A stretch of DNA of 64,000 nt, from positions 124,001 through 188,000 of the forward strand of contig NGBS01000001.1 in NCBI GenBank assembly GCA_002245135.1, written 5' to 3'. The first letter of the stretch is position 1; the number at the start of each line of letters is the position of its first letter. Position numbers and translations under genes: made by a program. The notes beneath the pieces were generated by a model. It was not told where the DNA came from, did not search any database, and saw only the letters and a list, made by a program, of their open reading frames with translations. Below, piece after piece: positions 17,323 to 64,000 of the stretch. This DNA is from Proteromonas lacertae (lineage: Eukaryota; Sar; Bigyra; Opalinata; Proteromonadidae).

Positions 17323-20300
17323 TTATTTAATTTTCGTTTTTAATGATATAACACCGCTAATTTCTTCATCCACTTTTAATTTTCTTTCAACAATATCCTT
17401 CTTTTTTTCTCCAAAATGAATTGGCTTTCTTCCATGATACCAATTCTTATGCACAAGTGGAGCTATTTATGTAAATAGTAATAAAATAAATAATACGATG
17501 AGCTTCAATTATAGCTGGAGGTATTGACAATAAATAATCAATGTCATTCATTTTACTATCATTTTCTACATCTGGCTCTTGCAACTGCAATATATTATTC
17601 AGAGAAACATCAACAATTCTGTCATATGGATTAATTAAATAATCATAATGACTATATTATAAAACAATATAAATATAATAAAATACTAGTTTGGATATAA
17701 TTCTAAAGGTAATAAAGTTTCAAGTTTTTCCTCTGCAATTATAGACTTAGTGGCTGATGAAATAATAGGAACTATTCCTTCACAACTTATTCTTATTTTC
17801 CATAAATAATTATTATGTCCTTTCAAATATATATAAATGTAATTATAATATTTCTTTACCTTTCTTAACTTCATTAATACATTCAACTCTCTTTCTTCAC
17901 CAGGTAATAGAATGAATTTATTGATTGGTTCAATCTTTATTGTACATATATCCGTTATAAGTGTTGGTAAAAATGGTTCTGTATCTAATGGAAATAATGA
18001 TAATTGTAATGGAATCTTCGATTTATTCTTTAATGTGAATGGCTTCTTTTCTACAAAATCTAAAGTAATTTCATTAAAATCAATTTCTATAATAATTACA
18101 ATATAATAATATTTATACCATTTGGATAATTTAAATTTAATATATCTCCAATTCCTTTTAATATGATATTTGTTACTAGAATATGATTTGCATATACTTC
18201 AATATTACCATTATAATCTCTTTCTTCTTTTGGTGTAAATTTTATGGTTATTCTCTCTGTTCCATCTATCTTCAACAACCTTGAATCTGTAGAAAATTTA
18301 AAACCTTCTGGAATATTCTTGAATGAAACGACAAATGGACATTGACATATATTTGATACAGAAATAACTTCTTCATATTCTTCATTCAATATACCAACAC
18401 CAAAATCTATAGAATTAGATTTTTCTATATATATCTTTGGCTTAACAGCTTTTCCATCAAGAGATGTAGAAAAACTGAATTAAAGAATACTTTATATTAT
18501 ATATTATAAAATGATATATTTTCATTGTGTCTTCATTATCATCTTCTATTTCTATTAACAACATTCCTTCACACAGTTGTTCATATTTTGGATTAAATAA
18601 AACAGTTACTCCATAATGAGTATGAGAAGATATTTGGAAATGTCTTTCATCATTTATTGAGAAATCACCTCCTTTGACGACACTTTTACAGTTCAATACT
18701 CTATCTGATTTATTTTCCATATCAAATTTCATTTGCCTTTTTTCACCTAACAAAATTGTTCCAAAGTGTAATGTTCTATGTTCTCTCTTGATGAATAAGG
18801 TTGTTTGTTTAGAGATTGCATGTAAAGGTATTATCTTCGTTTGGAATCTATTAATAAACAGCAATAGGACAATTATAATATACAGTTCTTTGTAAGTGGA
18901 TATTGATATTGTAACTGGATTTTTTGATGAATTGAATGGTTGAAAAGCACAATAACTCAACAAAAAGTCTAACGAAGCATTTGGATAAATGAAACCTTGT
19001 GATGGATTACAGGTGAAATATGTTATATTGGATAATTCAATATTGAACGGAACTGGAAAATTGTTTGGATTGGTGATTTGGAATGTTAAAGATACTGTCT
19101 CTTCTACATCTGCTTTACCAAAATCATATCCAGTAACTATTAATAATAATATATAGAGTATAATATACTTGGTAAATCTTTTAGTACTGGTTCTGTTAGC
19201 CCAATAACATTGTATTTAATCAATATTCCATATATTCTAAAGTTTCTAAAAGTAATAAAAATATAGTCGTTATGAATTCCTAAATCTTCTCTTGTGATTT
19301 TTAATAAGTCTGATTCTGATGGAACACCATTCTTATCAATTGAATAATTGGATGTTATATTGAATATAATCTCTATTATTAATAAATAAATCTTTATATA
19401 TATATATATATACTCTTATCAATCTTTTCATTTTTCATATTCAAATAACTATCTACAACATCACCTGTTATTGATAAATAATTGTTATATTTATAACTAT
19501 CTCCCATTAATGTAGCTGGATTTGTATTGTTATATCCATTAGGTAAATTAATACCTGCATAATTAGTAAGACTTACTGGAGGTTGATATGATATGGAATA
19601 TGGAATACTATAGAAATTATTTATATAATTATACGGAATATCACATAGATTTCTCAATATTATTTCATTTGTATATGTCTTTCCAATATAAATCTTACCA
19701 AAATCAATTTCTTTTGGTATTTCATCAATTCTAATGTAATAACAATACAAAATAAATATACTTATATTCAATTCCACTACCTTTAAAAAACACTTTAATC
19801 ACTGTACAATTCAAATTGATAGTCATTTCAGCTTTGATTTGACAAGTATGTTTTGGTTCAAAGAAAACAATAACACTTTTAGTTTCATTCTAAACATAAT
19901 AATAATAATAACCAATAGATAATCAATACTTCAGATATATCATCAAATACTAATGTTGATATATAATCTATTGGAGTATCATATTTCGATTTGTACTTAT
20001 TCTTTGGTACAAGTGAAACTGTCCCATTTCCTTTAGCTAATCCCAATGAATATACACATTTTTCCTAACAAATAAACAATAACAATAAAATATATATACT
20101 TCATCTGATTTTAATACATTCAATACAGCTCTTCCTTCAATAATACCACTTCCTTTATTAGTTAAAGGCAATTTCCATTTCATTTTGCATTGTAAAGGAC
20201 AATAACCAAAATCATATGTTATATAAATATGACCATTCTCATCTTTCTTAATTGTAGTGGGAGTTCTACCATCATTTATACTATTATTATTACTATTATC

Positions 20301-29300: not shown

Positions 29301-32300
29301 GATAGTCTTAATTTACTATTTCTTTTACTACCTTTTCTTCTATTAGTTCTATTCTTTATGTTACTATTACGTTTTCTATGCCTTGGAGTATTTGCTTCTG
29401 AATTTATATCACTTTCATCAGTTTCTTCATCATCATCATCATTATCATCATCTCCTTTTTCTCCTTTACTTTTCCTTGGTTTTATTTCCTTCTTCAATCT
29501 TGATACGACTGTTTTATGAACTAATTTCTTTGATTTCTTTTTCTTTTTGTTATTCTTTTTACCAATATCAAATAGACTACCACAAATTGCTGTTATTGTT
29601 AAGACATATACTTCATCAAAACATTTAATCTGAATTTCATTATCATAATTACCTTTCTATTTGAATATATATTATAAAATATTAAATATTTATACTTTTA
29701 ATGGTAAATATGACATTTTTATATTCTTTGTTTCTTCTGATGATATTATCATTTCAGAATTATAGAAATCCATTACAGTCTGACCTTCATAATTAATCGG
29801 TTTAACTTCCATAGATAATGAAGCATTATTAAAGTTATAATTTTCAATGGAAATACTGAATGTATTTTCCATATTTGGTTCACTAATAATTGTTCCTTTT
29901 TCTGGTATTTTAATGTTTAATGAAGGACCTTTATAACATTTAATTGGTATTTTTAATAATTTTTCACCTTTGGTTGAATATATATTAACATTACCTTCAA
30001 CAATATGTGATTTATCACTTACATTCTATTCATATAATAATATTAAAATGATAATATATATACATATGGATTATATTTAACATCAATATTATGTATTTCA
30101 GTTCCACTCTTTACTTCAATAATTAATGGATCAATTGAGAAAATAGATGTTGGTGTAACTGTAATAATACAGCTTTGTATTGGAATTGTGGTTGATGATG
30201 ATATTTCTATTGATTTTGTTTGTTCAGTCATAGTATTGTCGAATGTGATACATTCATTGATATACTCTAATTTTAGATCATTGTCATCTTCTGTTAAATT
30301 GATAATTTCATCTTTTCTTTCAATATAATTACCCATCTATAATATATTAATATATATAGCAATTAATATACAGTATCATATAATTCTTCATAGTCATTTT
30401 CTATCAGTTCTTTTAATGGTTCACTATTCTGTATAACTTCACCATCTTTATTCCTTTTATCACTCTCATTCTCAACCTTTTGAATTGATTCAATTACTAA
30501 TGGTATTGTATCATTACTGGGAGTAACTTTAACAATATCATTTACAATCTAATAGACATATAAATATGATAATCATTATACTGCTGTTACTTCATATAAT
30601 AGATTCATCTTTGTATCATGTATCTTATTAGCTTGACTGAATCTTTCATTTATTTCTTTTGTTAGTGTATTTGTACCTGGTAAATATTCTACTTCACATT
30701 TCAAAAACTCAGCTGCTTTCTCCTTCAATTCATAAGATATTGATTCATCTTTAAATAATGATGTAATTAAGAATAAATTATCAAGAAATGATCTTTCTAA
30801 TTGTTTCTATATTCACAATAAAATATATAACAATATTGATACTTTCATTTCATCTCCTGGTTTAATACTTTGATATTGTAATCTGATTCTATGACAATCT
30901 TGAAGTAAATCATTCACTATTATTTCACTATGAATGAATTAATTATGTTATTATACTTTGTAAGATTATCATCATATAAATGAGTAGTAAAATATGCTTC
31001 ACTTTCTAATATAAATTGATAATTGTAATATGGTACTCCAGTATAGGAATAACCACTTGGAGTTGGTAAATTTGTATCTTTTGGAATAAAGAATGGAATT
31101 CCTTTACGATTAAAACCAGCAAATTGTAATGGAGTGGTAGTTTCTACAGAATTTTCTGAATTTGATTGGTTATTATTATTTACATTATACATTGATGGAA
31201 TTGGTTGAATATTTGGTAATTTACCATACCATGCAATACCATCATCATCTTACACAATATAATTAAAGAAATATAAATATAAATAAAAGAATATGATAAT
31301 AATAAAAAAAAGATATATAATAATCTGGTTTAAGATTAACATTAGTAGGAGGCATATACACAACAGTATCATCATTATATTTACCACAACCCATTGAATG
31401 TTTAATAGGAGGAATATACTTAGGTATAACAATATCATTCACTTTGTTAATTATTTCATTAATCAATATTGTTACTGTATAATACTTACCATCATTCTCT
31501 TTAATTTTGAGATATAAAACATCACCATTATGTAAATCATTGAATTTATCAATCTCTAAATGAGTATCTTCATCGCATTGATAGATTGATAAGATAATTC
31601 CATTAATTTCGTATATTTCATTAGTTTTAATAGATATATATATTGGATTATTAATCATAAAATCATGAATGGTGTTTATATGATTTACATTTGGTCTGTA
31701 TGGAGATAATAATGGTTGAGTAGATGTTGTATAATCATCATTTATCTCATCTCCCATTACTATTGGTTCATTCCATATTCCAGTTGGTTTGATTGGATAA
31801 TTATAATACTCAAACGGTTTGGTGGAATAACCATTTGGAATATTCTGGAATATTCCATTATTGGGTAAATTATAATCATTTTGATTCATTGTTTTTTGTG
31901 TTTGAACATTATTATAGGTTTGATTTTGAATATTTTCACATTCAGGAAGTGGAATATAACCAATATTCATCATTGATGATAAACATTTCAATTTCTTATT
32001 CTTATTCCTCACTATCATTGCTGATGAATAATCCTTAAATAGAACAGGAGGAATAGTAGTACAAGATTCTGGAACTCCACCAATTGGAGGATTTGGTAAT
32101 GAAATGAATATATTTTCATCTATTAACACAATAATAACAATTATAATAAATACAATATCCACTAATTGATAGTATAATTTCGTTTGTATAATCCATATCA
32201 ATTGTAGTTGATTTATAATTGATATTTCCATTAGAATTCTCATTATCAAGTGGAGTTAATACGGCATTAGGAGTATCAATATATCTCAACTGCTTATATA

Positions 32301-47826: not shown

Positions 47827-50800
47827 TTACTCATCCTCTATTAAAATAAAATCTGGTTGAGTTATTTCACTATTTTCTACTTTATCTTCCTTATCCTTTT
47901 GATAATTATCTATTAGCTTTAGTTTTTCAGTCTTTTCATCAAAACTATAGAATAACCTTTGATCAGTATATAATTCAATAAACACTACTGATTTCTCATA
48001 TGTACATTTTATTACATCCTATATAAATATAAATATATAATGAGTATAAAATTAATACAGAAACACAACTGTAATGAAATACTTCCTTTAATTCAATACT
48101 CTCAAATTCACCATCCAATTTAAACACAAATAATTCTCTGCCAATTGTAATAATATAATATTTATCATTAATATTTGTTATTTGAGAATTAGAACATAAT
48201 TGATATTCTTTGTGAAATTGTAATATTATATTACTCTCTTTATTATCTAACAACAAATACCACAACGATATTATCGTTTTATTTGGTATTGTTGTTGAAA
48301 GTGGTGATTCTATTGGAGATACTACTTCAGAAACAGTAATAATATAATAATTATTATTGTATTTAAGCATTTTATGTGAATAGATGAAATGATTCTGTTG
48401 TAATTTATAACTTATCATTTCCTTAAAACTTGAAACATCATAAACAGATAAAATATTCTGTCTATTATCACTTACTAGATTCAATGATATATATTTATCA
48501 TCCTTAATATAAGAGAGTGATAGTATTCTATTTGATATTGGTATTGAAGAATAATAAACATTTGATTCGTTAGATAAACAACATAAATGAAATGTATTAT
48601 CACATGTTATTGTAATGAAAGAGATTTGATCTGAATGTGATATAATTGGATATATATGAGAATAATTTGATGAATTGTTTAATACAGTCTATATATTATT
48701 AATGTATATATATATATACCATTGCATATTGTGATTTGTTAAGTGATAATATATATGGTATTTTCATTGGAATGAATAATCTATTATTTGTAAGGAAAAA
48801 TGGTTGAGATGTGAATATATTGTTATTTGGTAAATATGATATTATATGAAATTGATTAGTGTTAGATATACTCCATTTTGATATTAATATTACACCATTA
48901 TCTATATATTACAATAATAAATAAACAAAAAGATAATAATACTATAAAAGACGAATAAATCATATTTATCATTTCCATTGTCAAAAGCAACCAAGTACTG
49001 TATTTGTGAATCTAAATCTGTTGATGTAATTGTGTTGATTTTGGAAGATCCAATTTCTTTAAGTGAATTATCACTCATCATTTTATACACATAGACAATG
49101 CACGAAGACCATTCACTGATGAATATAATTGAATGATTATTAGTGTTTATTGTAGAGACACTACCAATCTATTTTGATAAATATATTTATATATTTATAC
49201 TTCATAATCCATTGCAGACTTATATATTTCACTCAACTCTAGATTATTATACTTCAACAACAATATATTCTTATCTCCCCATATATAAATGATATCATTG
49301 TTATTATTGCTTTTATCTGTTGATATTAAAGTATGAAATAAAGCAAATGATATATTATATTGAAGTGATTTATCTTTATCAATAATATTCACTTTATCAT
49401 TTGTTATTTGATAGATAGTATTCTTTTTATGATCACTTTGAATATATTGAGTAAATGAATCACTTATTAATCCAGAAATCTCTTCATATTTCATATACTT
49501 TTCATTGAATAAATAACTCTGAGTACAATTTTCATTATACCAAGTCAAAATTACATAATTCCTATTATTATAACTTATTGTATATATTATCGGTTTATCT
49601 GATTCACTATAACTATCTAATACTACATCATTATATTCATATTGACATAATAACCTATTGCCAAATAATCCACAACTTAAATAACTACATTTGTTATTAT
49701 AATTACCATATCTTATTAAATATTCAGATTTGAAGCTATTGAATAAAATTGTTGATTTAAATTGTGATATAATTGGGCCAGGTTCAGAAAACTCATAATC
49801 ATGAGTATTGATATAATTGTAATCATTATCATTAATAAGATAATAATGAATAGTAAATGGAATTGTAAATAGTATAAGATAGGTTGAGTTTATTATATCA
49901 ATATACTGTATCTATTTATAATATATTTATTATTATTATGTATATTATACTTTATTATTGAGTGGTATTTTCATTGATATTTGGTTAATTGAAATCTCTT
50001 TCTTGGTTTTGTGATAGGTTATTTGTTGAATTAAATTATTAGTTGATAATACATATGTTATTGTCATTTGATTCTTTTCAATACAACTATTACACACTGT
50101 TTCAACATTTATATTCATGTTTTTATTATCTAATATACATACATTGCTGTTATTATAAATCAATATTTCATTTCTACATATTAGCCATAACAACTCACTA
50201 TAACATCTTATACAAATCAAATCATCAGGAAGTACTGATATATCATATGAACCATCTTCTAATATCATCTTACGAGAATTATAACAGCATAATTTCAACT
50301 GTCTAAGTAAATTATGATTATAAAAATCTTGTGGAATAAAGTCAAATGCAATGACTGGATTATGATGATAATTGTTAGTTAAATACATTGCATTTATTAT
50401 GTAAATAGTGAAATATTGATCTGTTATAGTTACTTACATATTATTAAGCTATACTAATTATTATTATTATTATTATATTAATAAAAAAGGATATATCATC
50501 AGGTTTCGGTAAAAATAAATTGACATGATTAAACATGTTTGATTTATACTCCCATTTATTAGACTTTTTGTAATATGTGAATTTCAATATTTCAATTAAT
50601 TTACCACTATGTAGTAGTAGGATTGAAAATATCAATGGATTCTTTAAAGAAGGAGGTAAGGTAATTATTCTAACATTTGAATCTAATAAATCACATTCTC
50701 TATTCTATAATTATTATAGTTCGTTATATCAATACTGACAAATCTGCTGATATCCATGTCTTCATTGTGTCCGAATGAAAATCATAGTGATAAATCTGCC

Positions 50801-62277: not shown

Positions 62278-64000
62278 ATGGTTTTATCTGCAAAACCCCT
62301 TTGGAAAGCAATATATGATGATTTAGTTGCTATACTGTGTTACTTTATTGAATATATTATATAGATATCATCCTATTCTTTCTGATTGTCGAAAGAACAT
62401 TCTTTGTTCTCCTGTCCTAAAGTCAATATTAGGTCAGGTGCATTTAATCATTGAGTATTTATAATAATTCAGTATATTATAGTAAAATAATTACAGATGA
62501 GAATAATTTGAATAGTTTATTGAAAAAAGAAGGATTTCTAGATGAATTAATGTATAATCAAATGCATGAATGGTTAAATCAAATCAATAATTTAATAAAT
62601 TCACTAATTCAACCTACAGATTATGAAATTTTATTTGATTGTACTAAAAAGTTAATGAAGAGAATTGAAGCTGCATTTACTGATAATAGTTCAGAATCAT
62701 TGTGTTTGGTTATATATGCATGTTGTAAAACGTAAGAAATAGCATGTTTATCTTATATTCATAGTTTATTCTCTTTCTTTCAAACAATAACTGATGAAAA
62801 AATGTTATTAGCTTTATCAACTGTATACACTACAACAACACCCTTTCCAAATTGGTTAAATCGATTAGAAACTTCATTATTTCCAGATTGTGAAGATAAT
62901 ATAAATGAATTGAGAAAAATAATTCATGAAATCTATTTCTTTATCAATCAACAACCTTATAAGTTATATGAATCAATTCCATTGAATTATTTCTCATCAG
63001 ATTTTGATGAAACAATGACTATTATTGATACTGTCGTATAATTATTATATTTTTGGTATAGGAAACAATAATGCGTTATTATTTAGATGAAGAACCAGAA
63101 AAAGGACAAAAATGGATAGAATTAGTCCAGAATTATATTACTCAACTAGAAAATTTCGAAAAGAGTTATGTAAAACCACCCAAAGATACTTCGTTTTCTA
63201 TTGATACATTAATAGAATATTTCAATAAAAGAGAGAAAATGGAATATGATTTAGTAGATCCAGTCGTAAAGAGTAATTTATTAAAAGGAATAGGAATGTC
63301 AACATTTATTGATTTGTCTGATAGAATATCCTTTTTATTATTATTATTATTATATTCATTTAGTATATATTTAATTCTGCTTGTAAGTTAGATTCCATCC
63401 TAATTGCTTAGAAACATTTAAACTATTACATTCAATGAAAATTACACCTCATATAATCAGTGTAAATTGGGCTAAGAATTGTATTAAAGTTCCATTAGAA
63501 AGAAGAAATATCACAGACTTCATTGTTTCATCCTGTGATTTGTTATTTGATAAAGAAAATCTTTCAACAGGAGATATTACTAAAGATATGTTGAGTGGTA
63601 TTGATAAAGTAAGAGAAATGAATAAGTATTGAATATATTCAATAACATTATTATTGTATAGAGTATTGGATAAAAACAAACCTGGTTTGTCAGTGTACAT
63701 TGGTGATGGATCGACTGATGTTTTACCTGCATTAGAAACTGATATTGGAATAATCATCTACAAATCTGAAAATCCTAGTATAATCAGTTTTTGTAATGAT
63801 TTTCATATTGAATTAAAACCATTATACAACTGTAATAGAGACAATATAAAGAAGGATAGTAATAAACCAGTATTGTATTATGTACATTCGTGGTCTGAAA
63901 TTGGTTGGTTTTTATTTGGATCAAAGTACAGTCAATATATTCAAGGTTATGAATGGATATACAATATTCCAAGAATGTTAATCATTGCTGGAAGTGATAG
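62278..64000 (+). CDS. TH2-like thiamine-salvage protein (TenA-like + HAD phosphatase) running into a ThiD-like domain (3' partial)
   Basis: Several exons from ATG 62278; the gene leaves the right edge. N-terminus PLWKAIYDDLVAILYHPILS aligns without gaps to the start of plant TenA domains (W, LY and P conserved), but the QD motif that should follow is not evident. From about 62998 a HAD phosphatase begins: SSDFDETMTIID (DxDxT motif I), LLKGIGMSTFIDLSDR, LLHSMKITPHIISVNWAKN, DLLFDKENLSTGDITK, LSVYIGDGSTDVLPALETDI, and VHSWSEIGWFLFGS, all matching plant TH2, a bifunctional aminopyrimidine aminohydrolase and thiamine-monophosphate phosphatase. After a linker the last visible residues are IPRMLIIAGSDS, the opening of hydroxymethylpyrimidine (phosphate) kinases. 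A 61-nt U12-like intron interrupts it at 63326-63386. Confidence 0.78.
63326..63386 (+). other. Candidate U12-type intron (AT-AA) in the TH2-like gene
   Basis: The exon ends ...TCT GAT AGA and is followed by ATATCCTTTTTATT; the next exon frame GTT AGA TTC CAT CCT AAT TGC resumes after CTTGTAA. Splicing here gives DR-V-RFHPNC, the same spacing as ERLSLQDGC in plant TH2 proteins, and removes a leucine homopolymer. A branch-like TTTAATTC lies about 12 nt before the 3' end. Length is 61 nt, the same as the candidate at 50434-50494. Confidence 0.5.

Follow-up and report, generated by a model that had tools for sequence, protein, structure and literature searches.

The intron at positions 63326-63386 of the window (the whole 64-kb stretch of DNA analysed, with a G+C content of 26.5 per cent) is very probably a minor, U12-dependent spliceosomal intron of the AT-AA subtype, and one of several hundred or more such introns in the genome. 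Minor introns are usually described as carrying strongly conserved signals and AC or AG ends. Here, to judge from reading frames and motif counts, the genome-wide system is apparently of the A-type only and its introns end in AA or AC, a reading that we hold with good confidence, and AT-AA is apparently the main subtype. No report of a minor-intron system dominated by AT-AA introns was found in the open-access literature searched, and within that literature the present system, AT-AA dominated and apparently A-type-only, is apparently an unreported variant.

From its 5' end the intron consists of ATATCCTTTTT, an ATT-rich stretch, TTAGTATA and a terminal TGTAA, in all 61 nt. When it is cut out the TH2 frame contains no stops; an AT-AG cut of 62 nt, which ends one base later, breaks the frame and meets at least eight stops in every frame. 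Spliced at the 61-nt intron and at three GT-AG introns (33, 26 and 36 nt), the host gene forms one open frame of 447 residues. A protein search with this product gave four matches, of which three span the junction and are gapless there, in agreement with the first-pass annotation, which had held that protein homology fixes the junction; the fourth, P0001, covers the downstream part only. An ordinary GT-AG intron of 76 nt (63316-63391), removed by the major spliceosome and containing the ATATCC start by chance, would likewise keep the frame open, but at the cost of five residues in the stretch that is gapless against the three homologues. It would also leave unexplained both the genome-wide motif counts given below and the AA or AC ends of introns in other genes, and we consider it very improbable. 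The GT-AG alternatives at this site are thus disfavoured by the frame check together with the homologue alignment. The AA end of the intron lies within the AT-AN class, yet is not the usual AC or AG.

Since the Pfam HAD match of the host gene is weak (15.5 bits, below the cut-off of 27), the label TH2-like rests on homologues. In three protein searches, that with this product among them, close relatives were 80-91% identical, two of the searches matching part of the query, and in one protein search the matches from named organisms were about 40% identical at the nearest (best 120 of 1476); a PDB search with the TH2 protein gave no match at E <= 1. The gene (62502-63998, +) probably forms a fusion with a ThiD-type kinase, because P0001, a close relative, carries PF08543 downstream of the HAD part.

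The window holds a second 61-nt intron, at 50434-50494, in an unrelated gene (Table). The two agree in the same 11-nt start, the terminal TGTAA, TTAGTATA and the length of 61 nt each, as had been noticed on first inspection. All Pfam matches of the gene around the second intron fall below cut-off, and because this gene is without a homologue its junction is not fixed by homology. According to PMC2846911 the U12-type 5' splice site reads RTATCCTT, in which one C at +5 or +6 may become T, not A, and both 61-nt introns conform to this rule; many class members break it, for example the 52-nt intron of the window with A at +6. Both 61-nt introns also have branch motifs, TATTTAAT and AGCTTAAT, that are weaker than TCTTTAAT. 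Each of them very probably belongs to a genome-wide U12-type class.

Table. Features of the window, and proteins matched by spliced products of introns elsewhere in the genome.
Feature	Position	Strand	Basis
U12-type AT-AA intron, TH2-like (HAD) gene	63326..63386	+	61-nt excision keeps frame and residue spacing against three homologues
5' splice site ATATCCTTTTT, complementary to U11 5' end AAAAAGG	63326..63336	+	sequence and pairing
Putative U12-type branch motif TATTTAAT, weak variant of TCTTTAAT	63368..63375	+	sequence, analogy with genome-wide class
3' end TGTAA	63382..63386	+	frame and homologue alignment
TH2-like HAD region, exons 62765-63035, 63062-63325, 63387-63625, 63662-63998	62765..63998	+	homologues
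Ordinary GT-AG intron of TH2-like gene, 33 nt	62732..62764	+	frame
Ordinary GT-AG intron of TH2-like gene, 26 nt	63036..63061	+	frame
Ordinary GT-AG intron of TH2-like gene, 36 nt	63626..63661	+	frame
Second U12-type AT-AA intron, 61 nt, in a gene unrelated to the TH2-like gene	50434..50494	-	open frame after excision
Putative branch motif AGCTTAAT in second 61-nt intron	50443..50450	-	sequence
U12-type intron ATATCT...TCTTTAAT...TGTAA, 67 nt, AT-AA, T at +6	31250..31316	-	frame only
U12-type intron ATATCA...TCTTTAAT...CTAC, 52 nt, AT-AC, A at +6	18466..18517	-	frame only
PDB match: topoisomerase 3-alpha (TOP3A), AA end			alignment through junction
PDB match: sphingosine kinase 1 (SPHK1), AA end			alignment through junction
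PDB match: AGC kinase, greatwall-type, AA end			alignment through junction, gaps nearby
PDB match: PP2C, AC end			alignment through junction, one-residue gap just before
PDB match: YegS-type lipid kinase, AA end			alignment through junction, gapless over match
PDB match: CaMKK2, AA end			alignment through junction, gapless over match

The extent of this class was gauged from motif counts in the source assembly (50.2 Mb in 1181 contigs), whose spliceosomal RNAs mark it as eukaryotic. The start ATATCCTTTTT occurs 409 times, as against 109 for the reversed pattern, and many of these sites look coding. A composite motif, defined as the 5' site followed by TCTTTAAT within 8-38 nt, was found at 84 places where +6 is C, against 6 in the control, and at 418 where it is A or T, against 33; these are the numbers that a chance ATATCC within a 76-nt GT-AG intron would leave unaccounted for. 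Genome-wide, the corresponding composites with a G start showed no excess, either with C at +6 (0 against a control of 4) or with A or T there (9 against 14). With +6 left free, ATATC combined with TTTCTTTAAT gave 561 places against 153, and among the 29 whose letters were inspected several have A at +6. The summed composite excess amounts to about 460 places, a figure that applies to the strict motifs, includes probable duplicate contigs and excludes introns with other branch motifs, such as the two 61-nt introns themselves. Within this excess the ratio of A/T to C at +6 is 4.9, near the 5.5 of the window base composition, and +6 therefore looks nearly free. The recurring intron class proposed in the first-pass annotation is borne out by this coupling of the 5' motif to a U12-type branch motif, and similar introns are not confined to the two genes from which it was proposed, since hundreds of composite motifs lie beyond them. 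The start ATATCC, by which the first-pass annotation proposed to collect introns, marks a sub-class only, +6 being more often A or T.

Could the likeness of the two 61-nt introns reflect a mobile, introner-like element that placed the same sequence in two unrelated genes? Their length, ends and TTAGTATA are indeed common to both, ATATCCTTTTT is enriched genome-wide, and the whole-core score of the pair, 10, was reached by 40 of 1000 shuffles. The interior score, for which the branch and 3' motifs are omitted, is 8, a value that 53 of the 406 pairs compared attain, this pair included. The likeness is moreover inflated by the ATT repeats present in both introns, and the near-identical stretches among the 84 composites look, by eye, like duplicated contigs. 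Because 27 introns of the class, placed as described below, span 46-71 nt, the equal lengths of 61 nt look like coincidence. Near-identical copies at unrelated sites were not found among the 27 introns and the two of the window. Given the interior score and the varying lengths, the earlier suggestion of spread by a mobile intron is not supported, and we regard it as a most unlikely account of the pair.

The ends of these introns were derived from 64 of the 84 places with C at +6, which represent 58 distinct sequences. The reading frame was determined on both sides, over 75 nt upstream and over the stretch 35-125 nt beyond the branch motif, and hence without reference to the 3' end, and 31 of the 58 sequences passed confident framing. 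If the first YA[AC] lying 7 nt or more beyond the branch motif is taken as the end, it is in frame in 29 of these 31, for which P is about 3e-12 at a chance of 1/3, a value that flatters because the sequences that gave the rule also served to test it. When L076 and L099, which look like unbroken coding sequence, and L001, a miss with no clean solution, are dropped, the rule fits 27 of 28, with L068 as the miss. Seventeen of the 27 introns so placed end in AA and ten in AC; two of the AC introns are near-identical copies (L100, L101), and L069, L095 and L104 are ambiguous by joint scoring. Phases 0, 1 and 2 are represented by 13, 9 and 5 introns respectively. Other rules give in-frame counts near or below chance (first AG 8/24, first YAG 5/12, after AAG 3/17), and the first YAA and first YAC taken separately give 22/27 and 10/16. 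At 21 control sites with GTA[AT]G starts YAG is the favoured end, in frame in 12 of 17 (first YAA 6/21), a control that is noisy because the first YAC is also in frame in 8 of 14. A looser and partly new scan of 262 kb, in which both motif and thresholds were relaxed, found the YA[AC] rule to fit 7 of 13 candidates. One ATATCC intron, at L023 4866 (-), has a frame that, by eye, would fit the end TTTTAA, not the later TGTAA, and a different branch motif.

The placed ends were also checked at the protein level. Of 27 spliced products made, four came from outside the 27 placed introns, and six, chosen as conserved-looking, were sent to a PDB sequence search. All six align through the junction, five with AA ends and one, PP2C, with an AC end (Table). 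Both lipid kinases fit AA|G and not AAG, to judge by the G that follows GGD and the GLM that follows the junction N.

A search for minor-spliceosome RNA genes, as the first-pass annotation had proposed, succeeded for U12, U6atac and also U11, but not for U4atac. U6atac gave one match (81.5 bits, with 46 of 1832 candidates scored), U12 one match (56.9 bits) and U11 three loci (63.4, 63.4 and 61.7 bits), all over the Rfam cut-off; for U4atac a genome search that scored 48 of 1767 candidates gave no match at E <= 10. None of 14 control genomes exceeded the cut-off for U11, U12 or U6atac, the control genomes named in the searches for these RNAs and for U4atac being bacteria and archaea. U12 GUAAGGAAA is intact. 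Likewise, the CENATAC family PF14968 is represented on a single contig by two matches that lie 1.4 kb from each other and score 40.5 and 30.9 bits, with a third, weak piece besides, and by none in the 14 control genomes. The early hint of a U12-type class is thus strongly supported by the presence of U11, U12 and U6atac genes and from the coupling of the 5' motif to a U12-type branch motif.

The U6atac gene itself (L029 1501-1615) is altered, with GCC instead of AAG at bases 12-14, so that opposite the 5' site it has GAGCCGAGAG in place of the Rfam consensus GAAAGGAGAG. In what we take to be the usual register, +4 and +5 still pair with U6atac, and +6 and +7 each face C; +8 to +10 could pair weakly. 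The predicted duplex with ATATCCTTTTT has -1.6 kcal/mol for the U6atac here versus -7.1 for the Rfam consensus, and -6.0 kcal/mol is predicted for U11. With A at +6 the predicted values become -3.2 kcal/mol for the U6atac here, probably in another register, versus -1.8 for the consensus, and U11 pairing is predicted to be poor (0.6 kcal/mol). So weak a duplex between U6atac and the 5' site would be odd for a working minor spliceosome. The exact core AGAGAAGGTTAGCA occurs once in the genome and has seven places with one mismatch: the major U6, and six others without an Rfam match at E <= 0.01. A further U6atac that has diverged more may have escaped the search.

With so weak a U6atac helix and no U4atac found, and with the major U6 in good order (98.3 bits, ACAGAGA box unchanged), one may ask whether the AT-AA introns are real and are spliced by a major spliceosome that tolerates other ends. 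Against this stand the coupling of their 5' site to a U12-type branch motif, its complementarity to U11 and the tendency of the GTA[AT]G introns of the same genome toward YAG ends; we think the proposal scarcely tenable. A standard U12-type system, with AT-AC and AT-AG introns and a few AT-AA cases, would be somewhat less improbable, though still unlikely. Such a system would have the U11, U12 and U6atac genes found here, and among the non-canonical minor subtypes of animals and plants AT-AA is the commonest, according to PMC10639083. What it would not explain is the excess of AA over AC (17 versus 10) in the 27 placed introns, the lack of a G-type excess, a C at +6 that is close to background and the alteration of U6atac.

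Observed here are the reading frames, the enriched motifs, the sequences of the snRNAs and the match to CENATAC; that the introns are spliced by the minor spliceosome we infer, and the following sequence of events can be proposed. The U11 5' end AAAAAGG would pair with CCTTTTT of the 5' site, a mismatch at +6 being tolerated, and U12 GUAAGGAA would pair with the branch motif TCTTTAAT or its variants. U6atac would then replace U11 by a weakened helix (U4-A16, C5-G15, +6/+7 mismatched, U8.G12, U9-A11), and the second step would take the first YAA or YAC that lies 7 nt or more beyond the branch motif, leaving AG unused. CENATAC, which in human promotes the splicing of AT-AN introns, is encoded here.

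The loss of the +6 partner in U6atac would fit the loss of C at +6, as seen in one genome and one gene; the change in U6atac may have caused or allowed that loss, and co-evolution of the 5' site with the altered U6atac is plausible. Since an AT start and AA or AC ends meet an unusual U6atac, intron ends seem to be read by altered rules. We give an even chance to the full picture of a rewired minor spliceosome, in which U6atac lacks partners for +6 and +7, the base at +6 has come down to background, the 5' motif is held chiefly by U11, the G-type is gone and the first YAA or YAC is taken with AG excluded, hence AT-AA as the main type. A set of A-type, mostly AT-AA introns, with a U6atac changed together with the site, would offer a natural experiment on U6atac pairing and on the requirements for the 3' end. 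By the same token, annotation limited to GT-AG, GC-AG and AT-AC ends would probably miss or misframe such genes.

Physarum polycephalum resembles the present case, going by description, in its expanded minor introns and diverged splice signals; Larue et al. 2021 are said to have described there a transformed minor spliceosome with >20,000 introns, whereas here there are at least several hundred. Pelomyxa schiedti, weighed as a possible source of the DNA, is unlikely, given 149,016 introns of which 98.41 per cent are GT-AG. In animals and plants the AT-AA minor introns have the same ends as those described here, but among conserved minor introns about 4 per cent have non-canonical termini according to PMC10639083, as compared with AA in 17 of 27 here, where C at +6 is also not conserved. 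The same source gives the minor introns of Blastocystis sp. subtype 1 a median length of 39 bp, with 77 per cent AT-AC and 49 per cent in phase 0; like those here they are short, A-type rich and phase-0 rich, but they have AC ends, whereas ours have mainly AA ends, an altered U6atac and no G-type excess in two pattern tests. In humans, according to PMC8280824, CENATAC promotes the splicing of AT-AN introns, the class to which the introns here belong in a genome that also has a CENATAC-family gene; AT-AN is a minority subtype in humans and here the sole kind with an excess.

Two further observations concern the contigs on which these searches drew. Two of the U11 genes, L031 and L032, lie on two contigs and have equal scores, and their adjoining open reading frames share coordinates and opening residues, which suggests uncollapsed haplotypes or recent duplications. 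Elsewhere, at L013 8540-9898 (-), an open frame resembles, by eye, the core of a retroelement integrase.
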